Shown: in pieces, positions 2,706-53,300 of the stretch | Layout of the letters: the number at the start of each line of letters is the position of its first letter | How positions within the stretch are numbered: the stretch's first letter is position 1 | NCBI RefSeq assembly: GCF_026914265.1 | Contig: NC_069124.1 | Span: 15,831,088-15,895,087 of the forward strand | Source: Mya arenaria | Lineage: Eukaryota; Mollusca; Bivalvia; Myida; Myidae | Length of the DNA: 64,000 nucleotides | Direction of reading: 5' to 3' | The notes under the pieces: generated by a model | Told to the model about the DNA's origin: nothing | What the model saw: only the letters and a program-made list of their open reading frames with translations | Database searches by the model: none | Program-made: the position numbers and the translations under genes

Positions 2706-4542
2706 CCCTCAGTGGTGTGTTATATTTCTTAATTAAACAATTAGATATGTAAGCATCTAGTAAACCAGGACACACATATATTTCATCTATCAGTCATTTA
2801 AAAGATCCGGAAAAATCATAAACTTATAAATTTAATACGTAAAACATTTAATACAAAAAAGTTAAACGCAAACTCAATAACAATAGGTTCCTGAGTCAAT
2901 GTTGAAGTCAATGGTATTTCCCTAAATTCTTCTGTTTTGTTTACCAGGGAACTTAATCATGCATCGGCTATCTTTATTGGATCGTTTGAATGTTTCTTAC
3001 CGGTTTTCGAATGTTTAATAGATCCCCTTAAACCGTTTGATTTACGTCCAAGTTCTTGTTATTATTGACGGATAACGGAGCATTTCAGATATAAAGATAT
3101 CAAAGGCCATTATTCACTTATGTCTAAGTTTTAGTTTTGAGGTCCTAAATATAGCACTTCTTATCATACATTTGCTGCTACGAGTAGATTTGCCGACGAA
3201 AACATTTTCATTTTACAAATAAATTGTTTGAATATAATTTACAAACATTTAATGGAAAAATTCAAATCATTAATGATTCGCGTTATATGAAGACCTTTGA
3301 GTCAAACTGAGACTCAATACTTAGTTTTATGGACCAAGGGCCGGTACATCTTAATTAAGTCATTTCCTATCTGTAGTTCGTAAAAATGGTATTGTCAAAT
3401 AAAATCAGATCAATCAGTATAAAACAATGTATTTTCATTAAAGTCAATGATAATTATGTCCCATTTGACATTTTCAAAAGATAATATTGCATTACCAATA
3501 AGATAATCAAATCAAGCTACGGAAACGACCTTGGCTACGGGATGACTTAATGTTTTTTTAATAAATCTTGCCAAGAGCTTCCTATGGAGCTTCGTACAAA
3601 GTTTGACTTTTTTGACGCTTCACGGATCGATATAAAGTGGTACCTTCATATCTTGTTGGTAGTTTTATCGGTATTGGTGTGAATTATATGGTAAGTGTCT
3701 GTAGTATGATTGAGTTTGTATCGCATCCTTTTTTAAAATATCATTATCCATTGAAATCATAGTAAAAAACTATAAAAAAATGACCATAACAAATAGCACA
3801 TATACAAGTACAATAATCTTAATGTAGCCTTTGTACCAGTCTTTTTGTTATTTCATGACCTACAACTAGGTAAGCATGAATTTTGCGTGAAAACCCGGTA
3901 CACGCCGTATAAATATTGGACACAAAAACATTAAATGTCACTCGGTTACGTTCATTTTCATAACTTTAAGTGATTATTATGTTGGCAACAACTAATGCAT
4001 TCATACATATATTCGAGTTATGGTACGTTGAAACATAAATTATTATTTTTATAATTAGATGATGAATTGATATCTTGGATTACTATTGACCTGATATTTT
4101 AGATTCGTTCACTTACATACACTTCGTCATCTTTTTAAGTTGTTCAGCAATGTATTTCACGCAAGAGATTCCCTTATCTCCGTTGGATATTTAGGAAGAC
4201 TTTATTGTAGTCGTGTGTATCCTTTGTCTTACAAGTTTAAGGGACGAGCGGTCTCATTTTGGGAATATTTGTGAAGTACATAAATTAAAATCTCCGATTT
4301 CTAATTCGTTCACATTTCTCATTTCAATGTGTTTCTCATTCACAGTTGGACGGTCTTTGCAGAGTATCTTTGGTAATATTTCTTGAAATAAGCATTAAAT
4401 CCAGGGAGACATTTTGTGCGTTGCAGGTGACCGGAAATGGTGGTAACCGTAAAAATATCGACATTGAGCAATGGAATGAAAATAGAACTAGTTGGAATTA
4501 TGTCAGACAAAATCAAGAAAACACAGCGCGAGCAAAATATAA
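2706..4542. other. non-coding stretch, nothing recognised
   Basis: AT-rich. The open frame at 4346-4546 overlaps the start of the next entry in another frame and was not assignable. No repeat or RNA gene was seen. Confidence 0.4.
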
Positions 4543-4803
4543 ATGAGTAAAATATTGTTCACAAGAGTCGCTAGGCAAAACAAAAAGAGTAAAAGTGCAA
4601 AAAGAAAGATAACTCAAACAAAAAATAGCATCACAAGGCATAATAAGATTAAAACATATAGTTTAAAACAACGTCCGCCAAACAGTGATATTAAGGATGA
4701 TATAAAAATGGTTCTGACAGTATTTCCTCTTGTGCCTGACAATGACATAGATGATATCCAACTGAACGTTCTGGGAGTAGTCACACAGGTCTCTCCGTTC
4801 TGA
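4543..4803 (+). pseudogene. possible fragment of a ligand-gated ion channel N-terminal domain
   Basis: An 86-codon open frame. Its second half has the spacing of the start of a pentameric ligand-gated channel extracellular domain: a YSLKQRP stretch (compare YNxxxRP), then a hydrophobic alternating strand (IKMVLTVFPL), an acidic turn and a second strand (LNVLGVVTQV). The tryptophans expected just after this point are missing and the frame ends at once. The first half is a lysine-rich leader unlike a signal peptide. It may be a decayed exon of a divergent molluscan channel, or chance. No partner exons were found nearby. Confidence 0.3.
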
Positions 4804-7800
4804 TTATGCACCATAACGCCTCGCTCTTCCCTTCACCCAATCCTTTGAGTAGAGTAGAAGTAATTTGGCGTATTCAATAGTTTAAGAATAAGGCAAACAG
4901 GTTGGAGGTTGATTGAATGATTGGATATGTTTGAGAAAGTACTTGAACAACGGATTTATCACGCTCGTATGTGAATATATCAGCTATTACACCGACCATT
5001 TAATTATTATAAAAGTCACCGCAGTATTGGTCCACTGGTTTCATAGAAACTAACAACGCATTGCCAATTTATCGTGAATGCATAACATTATTATTTTGTA
5101 ATAAAGCTTTAAAAATATTACTCCTGATTGTAACAATTTTGAAGAAAATCAAGTGACAATGCTAGAAAAAAGAGGAGCAAATGTTAGCCGCAAGAATGTA
5201 ACTGCCTATATAAAAGTTGGCGGCAAGGCCTAAAAAATTACAAACATACAGGCACATCTACTTATATACAAGTCGCTAACATAAAACGGTGACAATTTGA
5301 ACAACTTTAAAACTGCTTATGTTTATTAAAATAAATTCAAATAACCTATAATTATGGTTAAATGTCATCGATTCAAATACATTGTACAAGTATATGCCAA
5401 TGTGTAATTAAATGATGTTTTAGATGGATTATTCAGCAGTTTGCACACGCATGCTAGCTAGATATAGCTAGTTAGATATAGTATAGATACAATCGTGCCA
5501 AGACTTATATGTAAGCCAAGCTAAGATCTAAGCCCATCTTATTCTTGCAAAAAAACAATATTTAGAAGTAATTTCTGGAATTAAAGGCTCAAATTTAAAT
5601 CATGAAACGAACTTCACGTGAACGTATGAAATTAAGAACAGTGCAGTTCCGAAATGCCTCGGTTATGCTTAAACTTACATATGCATCTTACATATGCATT
5701 TGGGTGAGTTGGTTATGTGCACTAAAATAACATAAAACAAAAAGTATTTTCTTTAAAAGATTACAACAATTATGCATTAAAGTATTTGTTATGGTATTTT
5801 CGGTTCCAAAACAATCTTTAAAAAAGGACGGACATGTGACAATTCAATTCGTTGTCGACAAGTACAGCCAAAGGTTGGTTGTCTAAATCTGGTTCTTTTT
5901 CCGACTACAACGACATAATATAACATATGAACGACACCGATATAAAAGTAAAAAAGCAAAGCCAATAAGGAACAATGTCTCATTTTAGCGAAAAACAATG
6001 AAATGAATTGAATTACAAGGTTATGTTTGATGATAGGAGAACATAGCCTCCAGCCATGAAAGCCCCCAGCCATGAATCCTGGGATAATTCTGGTTTAGGC
6101 AGTACTGTTATCGATTTTAAAAAAACTTAACTTTTAAATGTTTTCATTCAATTCAAATTATCATGCCGTTTTCCATATCTTATAGACATTTACGAGCAAT
6201 GCCTTTGAGCATTGGATTAAAAGGCAATACAAGCAACTGCATAATGTATTCTTAATAATGACGAACAACTGCTTGGTGTTAAACAGCCAAACAGTAATCC
6301 ATTGTCTATTTCTTACCAAAATTTAATGCTTTTCAGTTAGAGAAAATCTGATAGTTACATGCCATTCATCAAATGCTTAGAAAGGTAAGACATTTTAATC
6401 ATTTTAAATTCTAATTCCTGGAATAATTTAATGTTCTACAGCAATCAAACACTTTTAATATGGTTACATATATATCTGGTGCGATTAATCGAATAAAGAG
6501 TGTCTTTACAATTCTTATTATAGTAATGTTTTCTGTCAAGGTGCATGTACTTTTAACGGATTTCTAGTGGTTTCAGGCTAGTGTGTGATACAATGTAATC
6601 TATTTGATAAGTATTAAACAATTTATCTATTTACAATCAAGATGAGACAGAAACTCTGTTTGAATTATATTTCAGAACACAGTCGTAGATACGATTTATG
6701 ATTTATTCAGCAAAATTGTATGGTTTATTGTGTGTGCTATTAACATTATAAATGATATGCGTGCTTAGAAGTAATGGGTATTCTGTGAAAGGTAACACAA
6801 TTATTCAAATAATTGCAAAGCGCAAGCGAATGCATTAATTCTCAATCATTAGATGCCAAACAAAATATAAGGAAGTGATAGATCTGGAATAACTTCTTAT
6901 ATCTATTCAAAATGCCGCAGTGGTTTGTATTTGTTTATTATTTAGCCTAACTTTCTTCCAAATTGTTAAGAAGTTTATGCTCACCTTTCGTAAAGCTTGT
7001 TACTAAAAAAAAAATTTCCCATTGCTAAGGGACGTTTTCTTCAAAACTCGTATTTAAATACAACACGTTCTGTGCGACTGTGTATGTTTCCAACATAGGC
7101 ATGAATGGTTTTCAAAACATTTTATAAAAGAATGACATAAGAGGTTGATCTAGTAAGTATAATCGTGTTCTCTCTTATGATGAAATCATGAGAATAGTAA
7201 ACCATTCGGTTATTCAAAATTACAGGAAACAGTTAAAACAGCATCAGTTAACTTTACCCGATTCGTTCTGAGAAATGTTTCAATCTCTATTTACTGCTAT
7301 TATACGTCCTCAGGTTCTTTTAATGAGAGTTCACTTTGATTTTTGAGATTGAAATTAATGCACCATTACTGTTTGAAACGAGTGATAAATTATGTTTGTG
7401 TAAAAGAATTAATAGTAAAGAGTAAATTTATTGTCCATAGTGCATTTCTGAGACACTTACATTGTAACAGGAAACATATTACAATAACCTCGTTAACTTC
7501 CTAAATAATCACATCTTACAGTGACCAATTTGTGCTCAATTTTATTCAGTTTTCCATGTTTATCAATTTGTGGACGAAATAAAGCAGTAACATACACTTA
7601 AACTATAATTACCTAACGTGTGTTAAATACTCCTTATGATAATTTCATCGCAAAAAGTTAAATCAATGCACGACATTAATATCTTAGTACTAAGGAAAGC
7701 AGTTTTGGCGTAAAACGCGCATATGTCTGACTCGATCTTGCAATGAGGGATACCAAACCCCAAAATGACGTTTAATTGTGAACGATAACGATTGAAACAA

Positions 7801-28226: not shown

Positions 28227-28331
28227 ATGAGGGCGCAAGTCCCGATAGCCGTGTTTGTCTTCTGGATTTTGTTCCTGGTCGCATTGAGTGAGCCACCGGC
28301 GGAACAACAGTTGCATTACTTTTTGTTGCAG
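28227..28331 (+). CDS. nAChR exon 1: signal peptide
   Basis: 35 codons starting [20 protein letters not shown], a basic start followed by a long hydrophobic core, then [14 protein letters not shown]. The donor is CAG|gtacgt. The start was chosen because the ATG at 28227 opens the hydrophobic segment and the codon phase fits exon 2. An inverted, damaged copy lies at 10803-10905. Confidence 0.85.
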
Positions 28332-29363: not shown

Positions 29364-32300
29364 TGTAGTAGTAGAAGTCTTTCGCCATGGTATGTATATC
29401 GTAAATGAATAAAAAAACTTTACTACCCAACTAAGATATACATAAATATTACGACCAACTAAGAATTACTTACTCTAGTATTCGTAGATACTTTGGATTC
29501 AAATATTGTACAAGTACCTTGCCACACCTTGATCGTTAGTCTTCAATCATGTGTTATGGGGTTAAGACGGTACAAGCAATCAACGTTAATTACTTCTCTG
29601 ACATGATATCTGCTAGCCATCTCCAGATCAGAGTCCACAATTATTGTAGACAAACAAAATTACGTGCGAACTACAAACAATTGCTTCTACCGAAAAATCA
29701 AAACGTACTGTTAGGGGAAACCATACTAGAGACCAACATGATACGCACAGACAGAGTGAAATGTCTTTGGTAAACAAATTTAAGAATTGAGTTTTTAATT
29801 CAGTTTGATTACCTAAAAAATGATACTCCAAATACTCCGAGTGTAATTTACGTGAATATATTCTGTATTACAAATGTTATTTAGGAAAACCGAATAAACC
29901 CTTAACTCTCAGTTACTGTAGTCATTTGAAACATAACATAGAGTTAAGGAATCACCTGGTATTGCTGGAATGCTGCGACTGGAATATATCGCCTGAAAAA
30001 ACATGAACTAGTCATATTAAATTATAGTTGTTGTTCTTTCTGTTTGAAGTATTATATTTAAATTCTTATTCTGCCCTCTTTTTTAAAATACTGTTCAGGG
30101 ATGGAATACTGCGAGTATTAATAATTATCAGCTATCAACGTAGATCGACCTATTTTGGAAATACACAAGACTACCTGTTTTTGAAAACACCAAAAATCCT
30201 TTTTGTTAGCTTAATGTAAGTCTTCGAGGCTATAACTGATATTGACAAAATAATAATTGACCAGAAATGCTAAACAACAACCTCACAGCCCACTCTTCCT
30301 GCTAAATATCAGCTTCTATGATAGTATCTTCGTCAGTCAATATATAGATCACGTGTCATATCGCAGACTGATGTTCAATCACCCACCACCGTTTTTTGTT
30401 GTTGTAAATATCGTGGTAAATGCATCAAAAAAGTGTTTATGATTATAATTGTAACACATATCAGATTATAATGGCCACAGTTTTTTATATACGGATCAAG
30501 GTTTAACCGATGTATTTGTAAAACATTATATTGAAAAGAAAAACGTGCATGGTCATTTTCTGATTAAATTGACGCAGGCCGAGTGTTGATGATCAAAAAG
30601 GTGTCTGGGAACATAGTGGTAACCGCCGCAAAATATGTCATAATTATTATACATATTATAATTAATCTCATTCGCATTATAATGGACAGCGTATTAAGTT
30701 CATGGAATCTTTATCGAACAAAACAAAACGTTATCAGGTTCAAAGGTATCACAAGAAAGATACTGATCACAGGGCCAAAGGCTAAAACATGTAAGCATCC
30801 AATCATCATGTAATCCTGACAATTTGGCAGTCGTTATTAATAATAAATATTGACATCCGGCTGCCCTTACCTCGCCAAGTTTCCTCTTAGCTTAATTCCT
30901 TGTCACCTTCTTGGAGAAGGCACAACATTATTACAAAAACATGACCGCATGCCGTCTATATGCCTTCCGAGTAGTTTGCATGTCGCTGCAAAAATGAAGT
31001 TTTTACGCAAGATTTATTGATATTTCACATATGTTTGCAAAGGTGCCAAAAACTTCCAATACTCAATTGGCCAAACCTATTCCCGCCCTTTTTATCCGTC
31101 TGGTACGTGCACATTTAAGACTCGATTAAACTTTGTTTGTTTGTATTCAGCATTATTAGCAGTAGATGTCAATTGCAAGTCACGTGGTTGTGTACACATT
31201 AGTCCTATTTTGCATATATATCTATATTACAAGTTGCTATATATACTTGCAGAAAAATCCATACAACAAACTGATCCGGCCTTCCGGAAGCACGGCCAAC
31301 GGCACGACAGTCAGCAAGCTGACGGTGAAACTGGGGATGCGTCTCTCACAGCTACTTGATGTGGTAAGTTGAAAATTAAAGAGGACACTTTTGGTAAAAT
31401 AATGATAAAACAAAACAATCTAAGTCAGCAAACTTAATTGATAACTCGCCACGAGGATCTCAAAGCTGCTTGATGGGATGTGTTTTGGATGTAAAATAGT
31501 GGTAAAATGTATTGATATAAATACGTCATAAGGCTGACCTTAAAACCAGGAAAATCCCTTCCATAGTTAACAAGACTTGTTTAAATTTGATACAAGAAAG
31601 ATATTAAGTTTGCCAAGGATAGAGACTGAAAATTTCTTTCAACTGATATCAAGATAAGAAGATTTATTGATCAAGCATAGCATGTTTAACCTGTTAAACT
31701 TGTAAATCAAAATATAGACTTTGTACTGATTAAAGAGATACAAAAAATGATTGATGCTAGTAAGATACCTCGAACAATTTAACCATACCTCTCAGTCAAG
31801 TAAACTTACATTTGCAACAGATGGTTTGGTAGAAAATAATGATAACGCAAATGGCCTATACAATTTCAAATATGACAGAATACGGTACATTTATACTCCG
31901 TAAATATTCGCTGTAATTATTTTTTGGAGGCAGTGCCAGTTTAATGAGCTTAAAATTACAAGCAAGTTTCAACTTGAATGATTTGAAACACCATAGTTAT
32001 ATATATTTATTTATATAAAGCTTTTATCAATGTTATCGATAAAGCATGTAAATAGGCATTTAGAAAAGATCTTACACGTAATTGTCAATGATTTTTGTTT
32101 TCATAATTCAAATCATCATGATTATTATAATCACTTTTGGGGTTGACGTTTTTCAAAAGAGGAGTCAAATTCAAGGCGGGTTGATGTCATTCTTGATACT
32201 CATTTCCTTGAATTACCAAATTGTGCATGAATCAAACTATAAACGAGTATATCATATAACTGAGTATATTAAACATAAAAACATAAACTAAAAATGATCC

Positions 32301-35300
32301 AGACAATATAATTGTTGAGCAACGGTTCCCAACAGGAGTAATTCTAGGTAATTCTTATAATTGGAAATATTATGCACATTACTGTGCAATGCACTAGCAG
32401 GGACTATTAGAAGACTGGATACATTTATCGTCAATGGTATCTGAGAATTAGCCTATAAAAAAGTAAAATTAATTGATTTGTGTTTTTTTGTTATGTATGA
32501 TAAAACCATAGGCTACTATTTTTATAAACTGTAATATTTAAGCATATTCAAAGTCATTAATGAGAAGACAGTTTTTGCCAAGTTCGCGATGTTTGTTAAT
32601 ACAAAGGACAACAGGGACTAGATCATTAGCCAAAAATTAACAACTAATTTGTTAAAACGCAAAGGACTCAGACTAACAGGCATTTAATCCACTTAAAAGA
32701 AAAGTGTGGTCATTTTGATGAACCTGACGGGTTACAATAAAGTTAACAAAATAAGAACAACAATGAACAAGCGCAGAGGACCTTCTACAATAGCTCTTCT
32801 GTACACGTATAGGGTCGTTGATGCAGGGGAGAAGAATGACAAATTGCAATTCTCTCATACTCATTAGGTACTCTAAATCAGAATCAATGTCATTAATAGA
32901 ACATGAGATCGTCCATCAGCAGTAGAAAGAAATGGAAACACCATGAGCGTGTTAATAACAACCTCGCTTTCACTAACAACCACGATGTCACCTGTTCCGG
33001 AAATATTGAATATCCCAATGCTTTCTTAATTGCAAACGTTTCGCTTGAGGGAACCAATGCTTATACTTTATTTTACATCATCTAGCCTTTTCGTGAAAGT
33101 ATTTTCTATTTTGTTCTTTTTATGTTGTTTTTCTTGAATTTGCTTGAATTCGGTTGAGTAAATATTTTCCTTTTTGTACGTTTTTTTTCCAGCATAGTCT
33201 TCCTTTAAAAATATGCACGCGTGAATGGACAATAATAGACGCTTAAGCAGTATTAAATATTTAATAATGCCTATAGTCTTGTGGTAAATAAAAAGTCAAA
33301 CATGCTATGTCGACTTCTTTTTTAAGAAAATCTTTTTTATTCAACAAGTAGGCATAATTTAAACAGCAAGTCCTGTTATACCAGCTCTCTATTCATGTCG
33401 TGCATTGATTTATTTTTTACGACAAATTATAATAACGAGTACTAAACACGTACGGTAAAACTAGTGTTAGTGTTCGCTTAGGCGTTATTTTGTTTACAAA
33501 TTGATGAAAGTGAAACACATATAATGATTCAGACCTTATATTTGTTAAGCGCAAATTGGTCTGCACCAGATGTGATTCTTTAGAACATTTGCAAGGTTAT
33601 TTTGTATTTCAATATTTCTTTTCAATGGACGTGTTCGTTCAAAGTAGCAGCAAAGCTCTACAGAATTAAATTTATTTTGTAATTTTATTGATGTGACACC
33701 ATCATCAGAAACATCTTTTATAAGCTGTTACGGTGCTTTAGTTAAAGTTACCAAGTGTTAACTGCTTGTGCTGCTATTACTTCGAACAGATTATAAATAC
33801 TTTTCTGACGATAGACATTTCTCTCAATTTCCAAAAAATCCCCGAGAGGATACCATGGACATATTTATAAATCTTGAAAGTAACACAAATGTAAACAAAT
33901 CTGTGAGGAGATTTAAAATGACAATTCGTTATTCTCTAGCACCCATTAGGAATTCTAAGCAGATATTGCCCATTGTCAGTAGGAAGAACAATGAGGGTTT
34001 TAATAAACGCCACCGCATATGTTCCGGAAATGTTGCTTACGAGAACGTTTTCTTAAGTGCAAGCATTTACATAAGAGAAATTAATTAAACTCTCTGTTTG
34101 TCATTTATACATTCTTCTGTCCTAATAATCTTATCTTATCCTAAATAAAAAATCTTAAAACATATAGTTTGCAGGAAAATTCAGTATAGATTAACCATTG
34201 TTGAAATGACGTTTTATTTTTGGTAGAAGATATAAGATAGCTGGACAAAATTTATGAATCTTAAAAGTACAAGCGAATCATATCAAAACATGACTGCGTG
34301 TCGATCAATTTCGTCTGACTTTCAGATCAAGGATTTTTGTAATCTCTGTCAGTTCCCCATGCTTTGATTGGCATCTAATGATTGCGCTCCGTGAGCATTT
34401 TAATACGTATATCCAAACTCATGACCGAAAGCAACCAATGACTAATATAAGAAATAAATCAGTAAAGGGTATAACATTTAATGTCTACAATTGCTTTAAA
34501 ATCTAATTTAAACATGTGGGTTTTATATGTAAAAAATGAATAATGTTTTACGCAAAGTATAACCTCCTCTTTCAACCATTTAGGATAAAAAGTCAACTTT
34601 TGGGAGTGGCAAAAATATTTCTTTTATTACAGTTTAACTTAAATTACTAAAAACATCATTTAACCTGCACAATTAATACATTTTGTGTTTAGTTGATCAC
34701 AGCAGACATATGTCTAACCGAATAATCATAGAAAATAAATAATTCAAAGAAAAAAAAATCAGTTGAATACCATTCACTAAAACACGCATTCTGACATGTT
34801 ATCATTTATTTTGTATTAATCATCAGCGTTCAATTGATTGCACAGGTTTGAAATAAGCGATGGACTTTTTATTTTGCTATTTTACAGAACCCAGTTGATA
34901 AATTATTATGTCGAAATTAAAAATGAAATGATAAGGTTGCTTTTGTAGAGTAATACCTATAACGATATTAACGGTGCATGTGAAAAATGAAATCCAAGAA
35001 CGGATCATGAAATCGTCCTTAAAAAAAGAATTCTGGTATTGTTTACACCAGAAATATGCACCGCTCCATTGCCTGGTGCTATGTATTTCTACGTGATTCG
35101 TAATTAAATCAAAACGTTTTAAAAACAGAATAATGTTTCACTTGTTTCGGTAGCTCGATATAAATATTCGGTATCGTTTTGCATGTATGTCTTTGCTTTA
35201 TTACCACTTCATGTCGTTTCAGTCAGAAAAGAACCAGATTTTGACCTCCAACCTTTATTACCACTTCATGTCGTTTCAGTCAGAAAAGAACCAGATTTTG

Positions 35301-38300
35301 ACCTCCAACCTTTATTACCACTTCATGTCGTTTCAGTCAGAAAAGAACCAGATTTTGACCTCCAACCTTTATTACCACTTCGTGTCGTTTCAGTCAGAAA
35401 AGAACCAGATTTTGACTTCCAACCTTTATTACCACTTCGTGTCGTTTCAGTCAGAAAAGAACCAGATTTTGACCTCCAACCTTTATTACCACTTCATGTC
35501 GTTTCAGTCAGAAAAGAACCAGATTTTGACTTCCAACCTTTATTACCACTTCGTGTCGTTTCAGTCAGAAAAGAACCAGATTTTGACCTCCAACCTTTAT
35601 TACCACTTCGTGTCGTTTCAGTCAGAAAAGAACCAGATTTTGACCTCCAACCTTTATTACCACTTCATGTCGTTTCAGTCAGAAAAGAACCAGATTTTGA
35701 CCTCCAACCTTTATTACCACTTCATGTCGTTTCAGTCAGAAAAGAACCAGATTTTGACCTCCAACCTTTATTACCACTTCATGTCGTTTCAGTCAGAAAA
35801 GAACCAGATTTTGACCTCCAACCTTTATTACCACTTCATGTCGTTTCAGTCAGAAAAGAACCAGATTTTGACCTCCAACCTTTATTACCACTTCATGTCG
35901 TATCAGTCAGAAAAGAACCAGATTTTGACCTCCAACCTTTATTACCACTTCGTGTCGTTTCAGTCAGAAAAGAACCAGATTTTGACCTCCAACCTTTATT
36001 ACCACTTCGTATCGTTTCAGTCAGAAAAGACCCAGATTTTGACCTCCAACCTTTATTACCACTTCGTGTCGTTTCAGTCAGAAAAGAACCAGATTTTGAC
36101 CTCCAACCTTTATTACCACTTCGTGTCGTTTCAGTCAGAAAAGAACCAGATTTTGACCTCCAACCTTTATTACCACTTATTGTCGTTTCAGTCAGAAAAG
36201 AACCAGATTTTGACCTCCAACCTTTATTACCACTTCATGTCGTTTCAGTCAGAAAAGAACCAGATTTTGACTTCCAACCTTTATTACCACTTCGTGTCGT
36301 TTCAGTCAGAAAAGAACCAGATTTTGACCTCCAACCTTTATTACCACTTCATGTCGTTTCAGTCAGAAAAGAACCAGATTTTGACCTCCAACCTTTATTA
36401 CCACTTCGTGTCGTTGCAGTCAGCAGATTTTGACCTCCAACCTTTATTACCACTTAGTGTCGTTTCAGTCAGAAAAGAACCAGATTTTGACCTCCAACCT
36501 TTATTACCACTTCGTGTCGTTTCAGTCAGAAAAGAACCAGATTTTGACCTCCAACCTTTATTACCACTTCATGTCGTTTCAGTCAGAAAAGAACCAGATT
36601 TTGACATCCAACCTTTATTACCACTTCATGTCGTTTCAGTCAGAAAAGAACCTGATTTTGACCTCCAACCTTTATTACCACTTCGTGTCGTTTCAGTCAG
36701 AAAAGAACCAGATTTTGACCTCCAACCTTTATTACCACTTCATGTCGTTTCAGTCAGAAAAGAACCAGATTTTGACCTCCAACCTTTATTACCACTTCAT
36801 GTCGTTTCAGTCAGAAAAGAACCAGATTTTGACCTCCAACCTTTATTACCACTTCATGTCGTTTCAGTCAGAAAAGAACCTGATTTTGACCTCCAACCTT
36901 TATTACCACTTCGTGTCGTTTCAGTCAGAAAAGAACCAGATTTTGACCTCCAACCTTTATTACCACTTCATGTCGTTTCAGTCAGAAAAGAACCAGATTT
37001 TGACCTCCAACCTTTATTACCACTTCATGTCGTTTCAGTCAGAAAAGAACCAGATTTTGACCTCCAACCTTTATTACCACTTCATGTCGTTTCAGTCAGA
37101 AAAGAACCAGATTTTGACCTCCAACCTTTATTACCACTTCATGTCGTTTCAGTCAGAAAAGAACCAGATTTTGACCTCCAACCTTTATTACCACTTCATG
37201 TCGTTTCAGTCAGAAAAGAACCAGATTTTGACCTCCAACCTTTGGCTGAGACATGTAAGTGAACTGATTTTTCGTTAACGTCTAATGGCATGGTCATATT
37301 CCGACTCAAAAAAGTGGTTTACTCTTACATAAAATATGGAAATGCTTAGTTATTAAATATTTGTTTTGAGTCAATAATCGTTGTTTACTATTGTTTATAC
37401 ACAAATTATTCAATATGCACGTCTGCATGGTATACGGGATTTAAAACTTTTACAAGACTCAATATCATGACTAAATGTTAAGGCCCATTCCCAAATTCAA
37501 ATTTAAGCAGATGTTTTGTCCAATTTTACATTGGTATCCGATTGCTAGGCGTCAACTGATGCAAGAACGAGATTCTTTTAGAATTTATTATCATTTTAGC
37601 CAAAACGAGATTATCGGCCATTTCAAAACAACTCATTGAATCGGGTACGGCTTGCCTCATCAGTATGCAAGTGTAAGTGTAATGTTGTGCAGGAGAATAC
37701 TGGTTTACAACCCCATTGAGTTCTAAGTGCTAAGTCTGCTATCAAACATTTAATAGTAATAAATAGTGGTATGTGTAATAGATATTGCTGGAGACGTTGT
37801 GCCTTTCCGCTCCCTTAGTGTATTCTTGGCCTTGATATCCTTTTCTGATGGCTACACATATATAAAAAAAAATCATTTTCTGTCCTAAGGAGTGGGTTGA
37901 GCACAGACTTCGCTGGGACCCATCGTCGTTCGGTGGCATCAACTCCACCCACATTCCGTCTGAGGAGCTATGGAGGCCCGACATTGGCCTGTACAATAAG
38001 TAAGTACCTTGAATGTCAGTTTGAGGGTGTTTCTGACCGTGTGACATCACTTGTTAGGACCATTCTTACTTTTGACTTTTCTTTCGCCCACTTTCTTTGT
38101 TGTTCGTGTATATCGGGGGGTTGGAATGAACAGGTTCTAAGTGACATTTCATAAAGAATCAGATACAAGCTTTTCCCTTTCAACCCTCGATATATTATTT
38201 ATTTTCCCAAACCATACATTTTGATGATAGATCTAAATCAATTTGATAGTTGCAATAAATATCTGAGTTCTCGCAGTTTTCAGTTTAATTCTAGATATGA

Positions 38301-38895
38301 ATCCCTAAAATTCGTTTGCAAACATTTTTTTTAAGTAAAATTAGTATTTCTGTAGTAAAATCATTCATTTAATATAAGTGTACTTCAAACAAAAATTAAC
38401 TGCTGCAGACGACACATTTTATAGACGCTATTAAGAATGTCAATAAAATCGACGTAACTATGCTGAAATGGAGTGGAGTACATGTGTATCATGTTGTGAA
38501 ATGTTTTTATATAACACTCTTTGTTTATAGTGTTAATACATTTGCAAACAATAATTTAAGATATTTATTTATGAAGTATGTTTTACGTTTATTCTATACA
38601 TGATGTTGGTATCCTGCAGCGCTGACGGCGACTTTGTCGTAACGCTGCTCACAAAGGCGACGGTTTACCACACGGGTCTCATAGTCTGGGAGCCCCCGGC
38701 TATATACAAGACCTATTGTCCAATCAACGTCGAGTTTTTCCCCTTTGACCAACAAGAATGCTTCATGAAGTTCGGGGTGTGGACCTATGATGGGCATGAG
38801 GTATGTTTAGCAAATATAAATATGTATGTAGGAATCATTGTTGTTTGTTGTGTTTTCGATGATAAATTTGATTATGTTGCTGTTTTTGTTGTTGT

Positions 38896-38926
<31 letters not shown>

Positions 38927-40297
38927 GATGGCAATAACGATTATCATAATGCTGCAGGATGAATGTTTGATATAGGAGAAATTGATAACATTATTTCATT
39001 TGTACTTGTTTTATCGTTCATGTAGCCTTCATCAGTCATTACAAGTCTACTTATTGCTAATTTGCCACGTAATCATTGTGTTTCACTTCTCGCGGTAGGT
39101 TGATCTGCAGCATGTTTGGGAGGATCGAGGTGTCATGATTGATAATCAGATCGTCATTCCAAACGGCGTGGACTTGTGTGATTACTACCAGAACGTCGAA
39201 TGGGAGGGACATCATTAACGTCACTGCTAGGCGCAAAGAGAAATACTACCCATGTTGTCCGGAACCATTCCCTGATATCACCTTTAATATCACTATTCGC
39301 AGGAGAACTTTGTTTTATACTATAAATCTCATTATGCCTTGTGTAGCTATTTCTTGTTTGACAGTGCTAGTTTTCTATTTGCCAAGTGCCTCGGGTGAAA
39401 AAATCACATTGTCTATTTCGATTCTACTTGCGTTGACCGTGTTTTTCTTGCTTCTTTCCGACATTAACCCACCAACTTCTATTACCATTCCATTGATAGG
39501 GAAGTACCTACTTTTTACAATGATTGTTGTGACAATGTCGATATTCTTGACGGTTACCACGCTTAGTGTTCATTTCCGTTCACCTGCAACGCATAAAATG
39601 TCACCCTGGATTAAAAGGCTATTTACAGAAATATTACCAAAGATTCTGTGCATGAAACGTCCTTCTGTGAATAAGAAATACATTCCAATGAGAACTGTGA
39701 ACGGAATAGAAATGAGAGAGGTTAATTTAGATACTCCACAGATATTCCCAAAATGGGACCAATCGTCACCCAACTTTTTAAGACAAAGGATACACACGAC
39801 TACAAATGAATTTATGTCCAAATATCCACCGGATATAAGGGAATCTCTTAAAGGCGTGAAATACATTGCTGAGCAATTGAAAAAAGAAGATGATGAAAAG
39901 TCTGTAAGTGAAATGATATTAAGATACATAACTAATTCAGTTGATATCAAACTTATCCAGAACTCAACACCCTTTTCGCTTAATAATGTTTCAAAACCCA
40001 ATCAAGTTGCATCTTGCTAATAATGAGGCTTGGAAATTTAACTTCATGCAAGAGAAATTAATCATTGATTTCATTGTATATGCATTTAATTAATATGTTC
40101 TATTTCTTTCATTTCAGGAGGAACGAGACTGGAACTACGTTGCCATGGTAATGGACCGCTTATTTCTCTATATTTTCACCACAGCGTGCGTGTGTGGGAC
40201 GATGGGTATATTCCTCAACGCTCCTTCGCTGTACGATCCGAGGGAAGCTATGACAAGGGACAACTTTAACTGTTCCAAATCATATGTTGTATTTTGA
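28227..40297 (+). CDS. nicotinic acetylcholine receptor alpha-type subunit, seven exons, one frameshift
   Basis: Exons: 28227-28331, 31253-31363, 37210-37254, 37890-37999, 38620-38800, 39099-39903 and 40118-40297, all with GT-AG junctions in matching phase. The product would be a cation-channel subunit in the plasma membrane. Domains in order: signal peptide; beta-sandwich ligand-binding domain with loop D (NLWLRHEW), loop A (WRPDIGLYN), loop B Trp (GVWTYDG), a canonical 13-residue Cys-loop, and loop C with vicinal cysteines (YYPCC, alpha-type); TM1; TM2 with a GEKITL start (cation filter Glu); TM3; a short cytoplasmic loop; TM4. Frame-corrected length is about 510 residues, usual for the family. 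Exon sizes 45 and 110 bp equal the classic nAChR exons 3 and 4. A 4-bp duplication at 39202-39209 shifts the frame and gives TAA at 39216-39218. Exon 3 is embedded in a 57-bp repeat array. Identity is certain; functionality is doubtful. Confidence 0.92.
28332..31252 (+). other. nAChR intron 1
   Basis: 2.9 kb. It contains the AGT microsatellite (29261-29376) and the block 29520-29840, which is repeated in inverted orientation at 9478-9800. Nothing else was recognised. Confidence 0.7.
29261..29376. repeat. (AGT)n trinucleotide microsatellite
   Basis: About 38 AGT/TAG units with a few TTG interruptions, inside nAChR intron 1. It is absent from the inverted copy at 9.5-10.9 kb, so it expanded after the duplication or was lost there. 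Confidence 0.97.
31253..31363 (+). CDS. nAChR exon 2: start of ligand-binding domain
   Basis: 37 codons between tacttgcag and |gtaagt. It encodes [10 protein letters not shown], the family's YNxLxRP motif, then the first beta strand [18 protein letters not shown]. Both ends are phase 0. It joins exon 3 to give the conserved [10 protein letters not shown] junction. Confidence 0.9.
31364..35196 (+). other. nAChR intron 2, part before the 57-bp array
   Basis: Contains two diverged copies of one short segment (32910-33085 and 33950-34080; shared pieces include TGTTCCGGAAAT and TTTCTTAA). No coding exon was recognised. The intron continues through the 57-bp array to 37209. Confidence 0.6.
35197..37240 (+). 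repeat. 36-unit, 57-bp tandem array spanning the exon 3 acceptor
   Basis: Each unit has 26 bp of intron end (from TTTATTACC to CGTTTCAG) followed by 31 bp of exon (TCAGAAAAG to CTCCAACC). The array is 36 x 57 minus 8 bp = 2044 bp, because unit 22 (ending near 36440) lacks AAAAGAAC. The main variants are TTCATGTCG versus TTCGTGTCG, plus GACTTCC, CCTGATT and GTATCAG types. Because 57 is divisible by 3, two forward frames are open throughout except for the switch at unit 22. One reads [19 protein letters not shown] per unit, which is the receptor frame. Only the last unit runs into the complete exon and a donor (gtaagt). It arose by tandem duplication of the intron-exon boundary. Confidence 0.97.
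37210..37254 (+). CDS. nAChR exon 3 (45 bp), last unit of the array
   Basis: Encodes [15 protein letters not shown], the nAChR motif EKNQxLTTNxWL with the loop D tryptophan. The acceptor is gtcgtttcag and the donor CAT|gtaagt. Its length of 45 bp equals the classic nAChR exon 3. Only WLRH distinguishes it from the 35 upstream partial copies, where the sequence departs after TTT into ATTACCAC. Confidence 0.92.
37255..37889 (+). other. nAChR intron 3
   Basis: About 0.6 kb, AT-rich; nothing recognised. Confidence 0.7.
37890..37999 (+). CDS. nAChR exon 4: loop A
   Basis: 110 bp, the same length as the classic nAChR exon 4. It encodes [16 protein letters not shown] and, further on, [10 protein letters not shown], the loop A region with the conserved WxPD motif and Tyr. 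It ends in phase 2 (AA|gtaagt) and is completed by C from exon 5 to give Asn. Confidence 0.92.
38000..38619 (+). other. nAChR intron 4
   Basis: About 0.6 kb with nothing recognised. Its 3' end is alignable with sequence upstream of the relic at 46755. Confidence 0.6.
38620..38800 (+). CDS. nAChR exon 5: loops B/E and Cys-loop
   Basis: 181 bp between atcctgcag and |gtatgt. It encodes [22 protein letters not shown], the Cys-loop [15 protein letters not shown] (13 residues between cysteines) and KFGVWTYDG with the loop B tryptophan. Homologous exons lie at 18367 and 46755. Confidence 0.93.
38801..39098 (+). other. nAChR intron 5 with GTT/GAT microsatellite
   Basis: A 298-bp intron. It contains a (GTT)n(GAT)n tract (38887-38930), the apparent forerunner of the longer GAT run fused to exon 6 sequence in the relic at 46905-46958. 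Confidence 0.85.
39099..39903 (+). CDS. nAChR exon 6: loop C, TM1-TM3 and cytoplasmic loop, frameshifted
   Basis: 805 bp between gcggtag and TCT|gtaagt. It reads [11 protein letters not shown]...NVEWE, then a TAA at 39216-39218. After a +1 shift it reads [34 protein letters not shown] (TM1), [20 protein letters not shown] (TM2), [19 protein letters not shown] (TM3), [13 protein letters not shown] and [16 protein letters not shown]. The cause is TGG-GAC having become TGGGA-GGGA-C, a tandem GGGA duplication at 39202-39209. Paralogues at 18.6 and 46.97 kb lack these four bases. The rest of the exon has no lesion, so the break is recent, polymorphic or a sequencing error. Confidence 0.93.
39904..40117 (+). 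other. nAChR intron 6
   Basis: 214 bp. The frame stays open into it by chance up to TAA at 40018-40020, but the gtaagt at 39904 and family alignment ([14 protein letters not shown]) place the exon end at 39903. Confidence 0.85.
40118..40297 (+). CDS. nAChR exon 7: TM4 and C-terminus
   Basis: 60 codons after tcatttcag. It encodes [20 protein letters not shown] (the conserved helix preceding TM4), [20 protein letters not shown] (TM4) and a short tail ending at TGA 40295-40297. A copy with a broken acceptor lies at about 47690. Confidence 0.92.
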
Positions 40298-42367: not shown

Positions 42368-44002
42368 ATTATTATCATTATTAATTATAATGTCAATTGG
42401 TCACAGATGAAAATGTCCGATTATTGTCGCAACGTTTTCAGCCCTCAATAGGCACCGTTTAGACCTAGAAAAAATCCGATCCGGCAACTGTACGCCTAAA
42501 CTCTTCTCTAACTGTTGATCTCTCTGAATCATCAGAACCTCCAAATGTAAATCCCAAATTCGGTATGAGATGACTGTCCAGCGAAAGCAACGCCTGTGCG
42601 AGGGAATCATTTGGTATTGTTCTGAACAAATCAAGCCTCAGCTGATGACCACGAAGCGATGGGTATCCCGGAAGCATTGATTCAATAACGCTGTTGTCTG
42701 AGAAAAATAAGTGAGGCAGGCGCTTTTCGTTCAAAGCAATTCGTAGCATAATGAAGAAATAGTGCAACGCCTTTTGCACACCATCTACCTCGAAGTTTGG
42801 ATATTTGTGGCAGAGATAGTTGAGCAGATAGAATGCTAACTGTTTGAGGTGATAGGACTTCAGAACTGTAACAATCTGTGGAGGAGAGGTTCTCGATTCT
42901 TTGGCGATCTTCTTCGTGTTAACAAAGTAAGTTTTAAGAATTCTATGCGCTGTCAGAATAATTAACTTTCTTTCATTTTTTCGTGCAACGTCCAGAATAT
43001 GCCTTTCGTAACCGATCGACTTAACATCCCAAATAAGGTTCTGATCGACAAATTCAAGCGCCTTGAAACTGTCTTCCTCTGCCCATTTGCAAATGGCGTG
43101 TATTGGACAATTAAGCAAATCACCTTCGTACCTAGTTGTTTCGTCATTACGTAACAGAAATGCAGGAACAAAGTCTAAATCAAGTTCCTTGTTGGTGGTA
43201 GTTGTTTTATTTCCCCAATAATCGTGTGTTACACCTCCTTCCATATAAATCGTTACGTTGATAGAGGGTGGATTCATTTTTCTTCGTAAACCGAATGTTG
43301 ATATTTGATCTGATCTTCTGTCATGTTGTTCGATTGCTTGATTGATATTTTCGATTGCCGAATCAACCATTGATTGAAAAACTTTCGTATGAAGATTTTT
43401 GGAACTCAAGTTCACTTTTTCATTTGATTCGATGAACACGTTTTTAGCGTGTAATCTTGGGTACGTTTTCCTCAGGAAACCCGAATCAAAGCCCAGAACC
43501 TCCAAGTAGCAATGCCCCATTATGGATTATCCGTTTCTCTTCTTGATTATTGATTGCTGAATACGATTGTCGAGCCCGTCAAAATGAAACTCTAGCATTG
43601 CATCGTATTCATCGGCTTTGAGAACTTTTAACCCTTCTCTTGAGCTTCCTTGGCGAACATACGAGTCAATACGTAGACCTTCGTAATGCTCAGCCTGACA
43701 TCGTAGTTCTTTCAGGAGAAGGTTCATCACTTCGTCAACAGCTCGCCGAGATTCTTCCCAATCCGAGGAATCGACCTCTATGTTACCTTAAATACGTTAC
43801 CCGTTTATAATATATATGTTAATATATAATACGAATAAAAGTGATTGCTGAAATCCTTAAATTTGACCGATATTAGCTTGCACATTTTGACATATAGCAC
43901 AATTCCAGCTATAAATGCATACGCAAATGTTCTTTCATATTGTATATGAAATACTTATACTCTTAATTCTACTCTACATGTATTTAATACGAGCCTACAT
44001 AC

Positions 44003-46754: not shown

Positions 46755-46899
46755 AGTGGAAGTGACTTTGTCGTCACGCTGCTCGCATAAGCGACAGTTT
46801 ACCGGACAGACCGTATAGTCTGAGAGACCTTGGCTATAAATAATATTGACTGTCAAGAAACGCGTGAAATGCTGTAAAGAAATAATTTTGTTTAATTTG

Positions 46900-46958
<59 letters not shown>

Positions 46959-47815
46959 ACCAGAACGTCGAGTAGGACATCATTTATGTCACCGCAAGGC
47001 GCACAGACAAATTGTACCCATGTTGTCCGGAACCGTTTCTTGATATCACTTTTAATATCACTATTGAAAGGAGGACGTTGTTTTATAGAATGAATCTCAT
47101 CTTGTCTTATGTGGCAAGTGCCTTAGGTAAAAATATACATTGTCTATGTCACCCAGCTTTATTTACAAAAATATTACCAAAGATTATGTGCATGAAACGT
47201 CCAACTGTGAATAAGAAATACATTGTAATGAGAACTGATACAGAATAGTTATGAGAGAGATTAATTTAGATACTTTACAGATATAACATTGGACCGCTCG
47301 GCACTATTTGTCATACAACAAAGGATGCATACTACTACGAAGAGTTTATATCCATATGAGATAAGGGAATCTTGTAAAATAAATTGCTGAATAATGATGA
47401 AGAAGGTGCAAGGCTAGTATAAGGTAAAATCAAAGGTATCAAGAAATCATCACTTTTTTCGCTAAATAAGCAGTTATGTTTTAAATTTGTCATGTGCTCA
47501 AATGATTGTCTTTAATATTACCGTACACGTTTTTTCTTTTTACAACAGCATAACTCGATCTATTAAAGCCTAATGATTCAGCGTGAAAGTTATGAGGCTT
47601 GAAACAAAAACTCCATGCCAAAAACATGAGTAATACTTTTAACAGTGTTTTTGCATTATAGTAATATTTTACTTCATTCGGGAGAAACCGGAGTGGAACT
47701 ACGTTGCCATGGTAATGGAAAGCTTATTTCTATATATTTTCACCACAGCGTGCGTGTGTGGCACGAAAAGTAGTTTCCTCAACGCCCCTTAGCTGCTTGA
47801 CCCTATGACCCGGGT
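46755..47815 (+). pseudogene. nAChR relic with microsatellite-fused internal deletion
   Basis: Part of exon 5 (46755-46851, GSDFVVTLLA followed by TAA) leads through residual intron 5 into a 54-bp GAT run at 46905-46958. This joins directly to the middle of exon 6 at QNVE-TAG-DIIYVTARR (Trp changed to stop) and then [20 protein letters not shown]1 is cut short, and TM2-TM3 are deleted at short microhomologies. The frame resumes at ILPKIMCMKRPTVNKKY. The exon 7 copy (about 47690-47815) has a mutated acceptor (ttcgg for ttcag) and a stop after LNAP. It is clearly non-functional. Confidence 0.9.
46905..46958. repeat. (GAT)n microsatellite, 18 units
   Basis: Uninterrupted GAT run. It occupies the position of the shorter GAT tract in intron 5 of the 28-40 kb gene, but here it abuts exon 6 sequence, marking a deletion breakpoint. 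Confidence 0.97.
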
Positions 47816-48999: not shown

Positions 49000-50330
49000 T
49001 CAGAAATAATCGTTGCCAGCAACTGTGTGTTGAAACTCTTGTTCAACTCGTGCCATCTCATAATCATGTAAACCACTGCCACCTCCAGTTGAAAAACCCA
49101 AATTTGGTATGAGATGATTGTCCAGCGATAGCAATGCCTGCGAGAGGGAATCATTGCGACGTACTGTTCTAAACAAATCAAACCTTAGCTTAGGAGCAGG
49201 TAGCCGCGGGTATCCTGGAAGCATTGTTTCAATCACGCTGTTGTCCGAGAAAAATAAGTGAGGCAGACGCTTTTCGTTCAGGGCAGTGCGCATGATGCAG
49301 ATGAAATAGAGCAATGCTCTCTGTACACCATCTACTTCAAAGTGTGGGTACTTGTGACAGAGAAAGTTGAGTAGGTAAAAGGCCAACTGTTTGAGGTGGT
49401 AAGACTTCAGCACTGCTACAAGCTGTGGAGGAGAACTTGCAATCTCCTTCGTTTTCACGAAGTAAGTTTTTAGAATTCTGAGCGCTGTCAGAATGTACAA
49501 CTTTCTTTTGTCTCTTCGTGCAACGTCCAGAATATGCCTTTCGTAACCGAGCGACTTGACATCCCAAATGAGGTTCTGGTCTACAAATTCAAGCGCCTTG
49601 AAGCTGTTTTCTTCTGCCCATTTGCATATTGCGTGTATCGGACAATCAAGCAAAACATCCTCGTACGTAGTTGTTTTGTCACGAGGTAAACGAAAGGCTG
49701 GGACAAAGTCTAAATTCAGTTCCTTGTCAGCGTTTACACTCCCCAATCTCTCGTAGATCACGCCCCTTTTAAGCTTGATGGTTACGTTGATAGAGGGTGG
49801 ATTCATTTTTCTCTTTATTGGTTTATCATTTTTCAAAACAAATTCACATTTTTGTCCCGTGATGATATCGTGGTTGTAAATCTGTTGATTTATGTTTTCT
49901 ATTGCCTTGTCAACCATCGACTGAAAAACTTTCGTGTGAAGATTTTTCGAACTCAAATACATTTTTCCAGCAGATTCAATAAACACGTTTTTAGCGTGTA
50001 ATCCCTCATACTCATTTCTTGGATCATTCAAATCCAAACCATTAATTTCCAAGTAGCAATGTCCTGGAATGTGATATCCATCCATGTTCTTGATGTGCGT
50101 TTGTTGAATGTTAAGTTTGTCAAAATGAAATTCAAGCATTGTGTCGAACTCGTCGGCTTTCAGGACTTTCAGACCTTCTCGGGAGCTTCCCTGTCTGACG
50201 TATGAGCCGATACGAAGACCTCGAAAGTCTTTTACAGCCCGACTTTTAATCTCTATCAAGAGTAATTTCATCACTACGTCCACTGTCTTCATTGATTCCT
50301 TCCAGTCCGAGTCATCAACTTCAATATTGC
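49000..50330 (-). CDS. cGAS-like gene 2, exon 3: catalytic and Mab-21 domains
   Basis: 1331 bp after acceptor ttctttacag; the first two bases complete the Gly codon begun in exon 2. It contains the whole nucleotidyltransferase and Mab-21 region in a single exon. The start of the open frame upstream of 50330 is intronic read-through. Confidence 0.92.
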
Positions 50331-53300
50331 CTGTAAAGAAAAAGTATTCTATCATATTTTCAGTTTTTTAATTGCAAAAAACAAACGCCAATCTTTGAAT
50401 CTATTAGATATGATATGTATTTATTTGTATAATAAAATGGTGTCGCCATCATGAATTAAACTATATTTAACTATTGTAATAACTATCAGAACGGTGTGCC
50501 GTTACCTCATATATAAATAACGTTGATAATGGCCTGGCCAATATAGCGACGTTTTAGGTTTATGATTTATGTATTTAGCTCTGTACATTGGTACATATGT
50601 TATTATGATATACATAGAATCTCATATGTGTAGTCATGCAATACAAAACTATTTAACTCATTTGTTAAAATTGGAAAGCAAAACTCGCCAAGGCTGGCAT
50701 GTGAAATCCACTAAATTTAAACACAAAAAGTATTGCATTTAACTATGATTATGTATATATTCAAAAAGCTAATTACAACAAATTGTCTCTAAAAAGCGCG
50801 GCGATTTCCAACGCTATCGCTATTTATAAATGACGTAGCGTCAAGCGCTCTGACTCAACAGTCTATAAGTATTACTGCCGATAATTTTATTGTTTAAGTT
50901 TACGAAATACATCTAGTGATACATACCACGAGTGACAGGGAAACGGTTGTCCTGTGTTAATGCAACTTTGAAGTATTTTATTAATATCGAATACATAATG
51001 ATGCATATAAATGCTATAATTATTTTACTGTAAAACGGTAGAATAATAATGTCATCAGGAGTTACTAAATTGGCGATCTACAACATATTTGACTGCACTA
51101 TATAAGCAAGAAAAATAAAAATCTTTAAAATATATGATAAAATATTTAGATGTCCTACTCATTTTAACTCATGAAGTACACAAATTTATTCGAAGAGCAT
51201 GTAACATATAGCAAAAAAGAAAGTCGGAAAAGTATTACAAACAAGTGAAATTGTTTTTTACAAGAATTGAATGGACAAAATATCCATTTAAGTAAGGAAA
51301 ATCAAGGCCAAACCTTTTCTCAATTACTTATATTAATAAAGAAAACATCCCTAACCTAAAAAATTGAGTGTACATGCTTAATTAACTATTCGAGCCAAGC
51401 ATCTCTGACATTATATCTGCAATAACATCTCAGTGAGAACATATTACAATTTTAGTTGTTTGTTTTTTAATAACAAATAGTACAAAATTGGTTGTTAAAA
51501 ACAGTTAGTTCATTGGTAACTACCATGAAGATAGTTGGAAGTCACTAAGGACGGACATGATGACTCAGGAAGTAAGTAGTAGCTTATGAAATCAATGTTT
51601 GTTATGGATTTAATAGGTTGATATTGATGTAGGTAGTTTGTTACCACTTTATGAGAGTTCATACTAATTACCAAGGGTCTGGACGTTGCGGTTTTAGAGA
51701 AGATTTTATTATAAAAGTATATAGAAATCCTGGGACGCCAAGAGTATGGCAAGCTTTAACCCCCAAGAGCATTATTTCACAAAATGCCACTACATTAGGC
51801 TAAAGATCAAATATCAACGATCTGAGCGTTTTCAGAAAAGACAATATTCAAGATTTTACTATTTAAGTATATAGAAATTATAGGACCCTCGGACGGGGCC
51901 AGCTATTACCCCAGCTTTGACCCCATGGACATACTTTGAACCATCATGGTAATCGGCCACTACATGAGGCTAAATACCAATTACCACCAGTCTTGGTTTT
52001 GAGGTTTCTGAAAAGAAGATTTTTAAAGAGGGAACACCATTTTTCACCACAGGTACATAATTTGTACAATCTTGGTCAATGACCAATACATGAGGCTGCA
52101 TAAAAATACCAAGGGTCTTGTTGTTGCGATTTCAAATATAAAGATGTTCAAACATTTATCTATATAATTATATTGAAAGCCTGTGAACCCCGTGTTGTCC
52201 CAGCTTTGACACCAGGGTCATTATTTGAACATTTTGGTAAAAGGTATGGGCCGTGCGATTTCAAAAAAGACGATTTTCAAAATCTTGCCTTATAAGTGTT
52301 TATAAATCCTGGGACACCCGGGGCGGGCCTAGCTTGGACTCGAGGGACATGATTTGAACACTCTTAGTAAATGACCACTAATTAAGGCAACATAAGAACT
52401 AACATGAACTGAGTTTCAAAATGTTTAACTAAATACATGTTAGCATAAAGAACACCTGGGAACCCTGTGACGGGGCCATGTTTGACCCCAGTGACATTAT
52501 TGAACAATCGTTGTTAAAGGGGTACTATATTAGGCTAAATATCATTGTCAAAGGTCCGGGCTTCACGGTAAAGTGAAGATTTTCAAAGGTTTTACTATAT
52601 CAGTATATATATAAAAAAAAATACACAGAGATTTAATTTGAACAATCTCTTATTTGTACTCGAAACCCGTTATATATAAGTTGAATATATAAAATGTATA
52701 AAGTCGTTATTTCATGAAAGCGACGTCATTAAAATAGTATAAACAAATGTTTACACGTTCTGTACTTGTTTTGTGAATAGATTATGTTAACTAAAGACAG
52801 GACCTTAAATTCTAACCGCTTTAATTGTGAACACTTTATACCTGGCTGTTATTTCAACTGTAACAAATAATAAAATATAAAGGAACGAGTTCTTACCCAC
52901 AAATGGCGACGCTAACAGATTGACCTGCCATTCGGGATCGTTCCGTCCATATTCTGTGATTGGTTTCTGCCACTGGTTCTGCTTATTGCCAACATGGCTG
53001 GCTTCTAGCTGGCTTTGAGATTGTTGCTCTGACTGTAAAAGAACATTGCCGACTACAGAAAGGGCAACTAGATGAATCAACCGACTGTTTAGTCATTTGT
53101 TTGTATGACCGTTGTTTCTAACTACTTTTTCATTTTATAACTTTTGATGGATCAAATTGATATATAGATCTGAATTTCAGAATTTATCAATATAATGTGT
53201 TTGGGTTAGTAGGAAGTGATATAACATCAAACAATTTACCCCTCAGCAATCATCCTGAAGGCACTGTTTCTAGTACCCGCTCCAATGCGGTAATGAGATA

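Follow-up and report, generated by a model that had tools for sequence, protein, structure and literature searches.

How might a gene continue to be spliced when the end of one of its introns, together with the start of the next exon, has been repeated head to tail dozens of times? This question is raised by a 64,000-nucleotide (nt) stretch of the genome of the soft-shell clam Mya arenaria (the window; C3:15831088-15895087, in an assembly of 1.216 Gb and 18 contigs), in which a nicotinic acetylcholine receptor gene carries a 2-kb tandem array across the boundary between intron 2 and exon 3. The size agrees with that of the published Mya assembly, 1.22 Gb, which was built from PacBio, Hi-C and 10x reads with purge_haplotigs applied; the same paper states that RNA-seq exists for six tissues of the reference clam (PMC10663159). 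We hold with considerable confidence that the array is a mirage minisatellite that was born at a short microhomology, grew by slippage or unequal exchange and lies inside intron 2, where it is a tolerated by-product while the last acceptor is mostly used.

A receptor gene with a repeated splice acceptor

The assignment of the host gene to the nicotinic receptors, made in a preliminary description of this DNA, was borne out by profile matches to both the ligand-binding part (PF02931, E 8.4e-55) and the membrane part (PF02932, E 1.2e-53) of the receptor. Among the 120 protein matches listed, the top one is an annotated M. arenaria protein, acetylcholine receptor subunit alpha-like 1 (P0001), which is 99% identical. 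We placed exons 2 to 7 by splice sites and translation, with exon 6 also compared with a twin gene described below, whereas for exon 1 the ends were deduced from the first 35 residues of P0001. The array was located with Tandem Repeats Finder and by cutting it into units, and the gene is laid out in the window as follows:

about 28227..28331 (+): exon 1, signal peptide
31253..31363 (+): exon 2, ending in phase 0, with donor GTAAGT
35196..37239 (+): the tandem array, 36 units; the shared CTTT after it reaches 37243
36393..36441 (+): unit 22 of the array (from unit cutting), 49 bp, with an 8-bp deletion in its exon part
37210..37254 (+): canonical exon 3, 45 bp, with the acceptor of unit 36 and donor GTAAGT
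37890..37999 (+): exon 4, 110 bp
38620..38800 (+): exon 5, 181 bp
39099..39903 (+): exon 6, 805 bp, holding a 4-bp tandem duplication that breaks the frame
40118..40297 (+): exon 7 with the stop codon

Run on the window, Tandem Repeats Finder reported a repeat at 35196-37243 (+) with a period of 57, 36.1 copies, 97% matches and a score of 3851, versus 224 for the runner-up among its 14 rows. Cutting at CTTTATTACC and counting unit by unit gave 36 head-to-tail units at 35196-37239 (+), 35 of them 57 bp and one 49 bp long, and thus reproduced the 2044 bp, including the 8-bp deletion, of the preliminary description; the exact unit number at this locus is that of one assembly. Chance cannot account for 2 kb of tandem units at 97% likeness. 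The consensus is matched exactly by 15 of the 36 units, and ten others share a single A>G substitution at unit position 16. Along the array the unit types follow the order AAAEBCBBAAAAFBGBBHCBAIJBKDBAADBAAAAA, in which the four-type word DBAA is present twice in tandem and no periodicity at lags 1-12 is significant (smallest p 0.07, at lag 1).

With the phasing adopted for this description, a full unit joins 27 bp from the end of intron 2, closed by the acceptor CAG, to 30 bp from the start of exon 3. Because CTTT is present at both unit ends, the boundary can slide through five equivalent phasings, from 27+30 to 23+34, and the division into 26 bp of intron 2 and 31 bp of exon 3 given previously is a valid one of the five. 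The claim of 36 AG acceptors preceding a single donor also stood: CAG is intact in every unit, and the exon 3 donor GTAAGT matches a simple donor consensus at 8 of 9 positions, compared with 5 of 9 for the best GT-containing 9-mer inside the array. Since the repeat unit contains an intron–exon boundary, with exon 3 fixed by splice sites and translation, the array is a mirage-type structure, a long case of a kind of repeat that is already described, if rarely.

A twin array, a single-unit paralog and the origin of the unit

Beyond the preliminary description, we found a twin gene with 10 units, a paralog with a single unit, a reading-frame property of the acceptors and, in the window gene, an exon 6 whose frame is broken. 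The twin, detected when the 3′ end of the array was used as a query, lies approximately 130 kb downstream, with its exon 2 donor at C3:15993210; nine of its 10 units are identical to the commonest unit of the window and one has a private substitution, and its existence makes the observation of the array firmer. A third paralog (C3:16082532) has one unit, so that the unit number differs by locus within one assembly: 36 in the window, 10 in the twin and one in this paralog. When two units plus exon 3 served as the query, the whole assembly returned at least 26 matches, all on C3, which came from both arrays, from the paralog with one unit and from three weaker homologs of exon 3; no further array was found in this search, whose match counts are lower bounds. 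A transposon or a dispersed satellite was rejected because this search found the unit in one gene cluster on C3 and nowhere else, and the earlier statement that transposition is not needed to explain the array is upheld by the same search.

The single-unit paralog already has CTTT both at the start of the intron-end segment and inside the exon, which means that the unduplicated state possessed a 4-bp microhomology bounding the future unit. Because CTTT bounds the unit and exists already in this paralog, comparison of the three genes points to a microhomology-mediated tandem duplication, and not a transposon, as the most likely origin of the array.

The array-bearing twins reside in direct repeats of approximately 74 kb (C3:15803368-15877701 and C3:15935108-16007295) that are 96-98% identical, except for two short segments at 91% and 94%; past position 46.6 kb of the window, the similarity of the blocks goes on in the same order at a lower identity of about 72-84%. 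The two blocks could stem from a segmental duplication, or they could be haplotypes that the assembly set one after the other. We lean towards a true duplication, because purge_haplotigs was used on the assembly (PMC10663159) and no N occurs within the 296 kb examined.

Exons 2-7 of the twins differ at seven points (one in exon 2, three each in exons 5 and 6, none in exons 3, 4 and 7), and all seven differences are synonymous, an outcome with a chance of about 2e-5 in a hand calculation that used 313 synonymous and 1115 nonsynonymous sites. From exon 2 on, P0001 equals the translation of the twin, including the 45-nt exon 3, and the residues encoded by window exons 2-5 match P0001. In exon 6 of the window gene, a 4-bp tandem duplication within 39198-39213 breaks the frame; neither the twin nor P0001 has it, and it may reflect a recent pseudogene, a polymorphism or an assembly error.

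Divergence between the twins is locally raised at window positions 34700-35195 and 37340-37540, which flank the array. Upstream of the array they differ at 12 of the nearest 100 bp and 26 of the nearest 500 bp; downstream, there are no differences in the first 100 bp and 13 in the next 200 bp. Farther from the array, 81 windows of the gene show about one difference per 100 bp. Across the whole duplicated block, at least 12 differences were found in 2 of 703 other 100-bp windows and at least 26 in 9 of 663 overlapping 500-bp windows. Because twin differences are clustered elsewhere in the block too, we do not insist on a mutation halo around the array.

Choice of acceptor and reading frame

Nine acceptors of the window array (2, 3, 10, 11, 12, 29, 33, 34 and 35) show no difference from acceptor 36 between −84 and +34, and thus among these only position can decide; acceptor 1 has an upstream context unlike the others. 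Every unit offers branch-point-like yTnAy words with 35, 22 and 11 nt from the A to the next exon start, and the word at 35 nt, TTGAC, sits in exon-derived sequence with no AG between it and the acceptor. It is acceptor 36 that yields the 45-nt exon of the annotated protein P0001. Because P0001 uses the last acceptor and all seven twin differences are synonymous, canonical splicing probably persists in these genes, with the last acceptor mostly used; closeness to the single strong donor would be the simplest way for acceptor 36 to win.

The end of exon 2 and the start of exon 3 are both in phase 0, and the 57-bp unit amounts to 19 codons. In the twin, all 10 acceptors give a frame that is open to the normal stop, with lengths of 476 to 647 codons (stop included, exon 1 excluded). 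In the window, acceptors 23-36, the last 14 of the 36, give exon lengths divisible by three, whereas acceptors 1-22 are out of frame because of the 8-bp deletion in unit 22, and all 36 readings stop early because the frame of exon 6 is broken. As a sign of function the frame-neutral unit is weak, since by our estimate it has about one chance in five of arising by chance. In an array-restricted protein search, none of 7992 candidates matched the repeated peptide at E 0.001, a weak negative given that a repetitive query may be penalised; the array as annotated coding sequence was set aside on this search. The exon 2/3 junction aligns to DVDEKNQ of alpha-4 in 8ssz, at what we take to be the beta1-beta2 loop facing the membrane part, and none of 22 aligned homologs has an insertion there.

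The history that we favour begins in the common ancestor of the two array-bearing genes, which are either recent duplicates or alleles. There, slippage during replication, or repair guided by microhomology, would have copied the 57-bp segment between the CTTT of intron 2 and the CTTT of exon 3 head to tail, and slippage or unequal exchange would then have enlarged the array until the window gene had 36 units and the twin 10. The repeats would be transcribed as part of intron 2, and the spliceosome would mostly join exon 2 to the last acceptor, which alone would give the conserved 45-nt exon adjoining the donor, the upstream acceptors differing only by their position. Were one of the last few acceptors used now and then, the protein would gain 19 residues, or a multiple of 19, in frame. 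On this account the array is probably a tolerated by-product and not a regulatory device. Several points weigh against the account. P0001 is an annotated protein, known here from its annotation alone. Given the exon 6 frame break, the window copy may recently have become a pseudogene, for which correct splicing has ceased to matter; if so, the all-synonymous differences would speak for the past of that copy and for the twin. Lastly, the array data do not tell slippage from unequal exchange.

The repeated acceptors could instead be a working isoform generator, in which regulated use of several of them yields receptors with 0, 1, 2 or more extra 19-residue blocks between exons 2 and 3. The 10 open acceptors of the twin, the nine window acceptors that equal acceptor 36 and the alignment of the junction to the alpha-4 segment would suit such a device, as would the precedent of IFI6, whose repeat units serve as alternative donors (PMC4526556). 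We nevertheless regard it as unlikely, given that window acceptors 1-22 are out of frame, that an open unit divisible by three is not rare by chance, that the peptide search, weak as it is, was empty, and that the aligned homologs are uninterrupted at the junction. It is similarly improbable, in our estimation, that the array acts as an expandable ladder of acceptors, in which gain or loss of near-identical, frame-neutral units would alter the frequency of 19-residue blocks at the exon 2/3 junction or the mis-spliced share of the transcript, so that clams would differ in receptor output through a polymorphism in repeat number. Decay offers another explanation, according to which the window gene is a young pseudogene whose array grew unselected and has no bearing on a working gene there. 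The 4-bp duplication in window exon 6, which the twin lacks, fits this explanation, and the broken copy is the one that holds the longer array; the intact-frame twin, equal to P0001, has 10 units, however, so that arrays arose or persist in an intact gene, and window exons 2-5 still give the residues of P0001. We consider decay quite unlikely as the explanation of the array.

An assembly artefact, in which a true array of one or a few units was inflated, strikes us as very improbable: a 2-kb array is short against PacBio reads, the units carry differing variants, the twin array is of another size with a private variant, and the 296 kb are free of N. That tandem arrays can be mis-sized, and that one amphioxus mirage was aberrantly assembled in a draft genome (PMC3087553), speaks for such an error, against which stands the use of PacBio long reads (PMC10663159).

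Comparable repeats and neighbouring features

The preliminary description called the array unusual, and it is less so than was claimed, because the amphioxus mirages and human repeats at exon–intron boundaries are of the same kind (PMC3087553, PMC3902484, PMC2812944). Mirages were described in amphioxus as minisatellite-like tandem duplications of an intron–exon boundary in the globin genes BflGb6 and BflGb9 and in Adh3, and were reported too for troponin C and PGBD5 (PMC3087553, PMC3902484). In BflGb6, as in the clam, the repeated segment joins the 3′ end of an intron to the beginning of the following exon, which is exon 2 in that gene; it has 6 and 3 units in two haplotypes, compared with 36 and 10 in the clam twins, which are alleles or paralogs. 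The amphioxus unit is 150-160 bp long and 81-100% alike, whereas that of the clam is 57 bp and 97% alike, and regular splicing is reported for the amphioxus mirages, whereas the clam case is read from DNA and an annotated protein (PMC3087553, PMC3902484). The clam host differs in being a mollusc and the gene in coding for a ligand-gated channel. Somatic instability has been reported for the amphioxus Adh3 mirage.

Reportedly, the minisatellite of IFI6 was found by Turri in 1995 to provide multiple splice donors. In passages on IFI6 (6-16), its repeat units are used as alternative splice donors (PMC4526556), which makes it, like the clam array, a minisatellite repeating a splice site in a transcribed gene, although in IFI6 the repeated sites are donors, several of them used, and in the clam they are acceptors. 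For segmental duplications in humans, a list of 27 intron modifications caused by variable tandem repeats has been published (PMC2812944). The human case is similar in being a variable minisatellite at an exon–intron boundary in recently duplicated paralogs, where the clam twins may be paralogs or alleles; the human repeats have 30-bp units, approximately four copies on average and transcripts, compared with 57-bp units, 36 and 10 copies and DNA only in the clam (PMC2812944). In the titles, abstract openings and passages searched, no such array was reported for molluscs or for nicotinic receptor genes; measured against that literature, in which mirages are described for amphioxus, the clam array adds both a mollusc and a gene for a ligand-gated channel. 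With genes of 36, 10 and one unit side by side in one assembly, it also constitutes a natural experiment on acceptor choice by the spliceosome, and, should the twins prove to be alleles, it would offer population studies of the clam a ready-made polymorphism in repeat number.

Nicotinic receptor genes of bivalves are described as greatly expanded and often placed in tandem arrays (PMC6896357), an expansion that could supply recently copied, partly redundant genes in which such repeats survive. A PF02931 profile search for other receptor genes gave 152 matches. Within the window, a degenerate second receptor copy at 46764-47795 (+) retains remnants of exons 5, 6 and 7, and a further remnant at 4132-5899 (−) shows similarity to exon 6 (69%) and exon 3 (91%), with many stops in its translation. 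A Mab-21 domain gene (PF03281, E 9.2e-10) lies at 49003-50367 (−) and a similar neighbour at 42468-43787 (−); the frame of the neighbour contains a stop, and its longer part has no Pfam match at E 0.001. Units of 81, 39, 83 and 52 bp make up further minisatellites in the 296 kb, the first three of which lie in the same cluster:

C3:16051905-16053093: 81-bp unit, 15 copies
C3:16053923-16054431: 39-bp unit, 13 copies
C3:16070227-16071021: 83-bp unit, 10 copies

When translated in reverse, the 81-bp and 39-bp units have some open frames.

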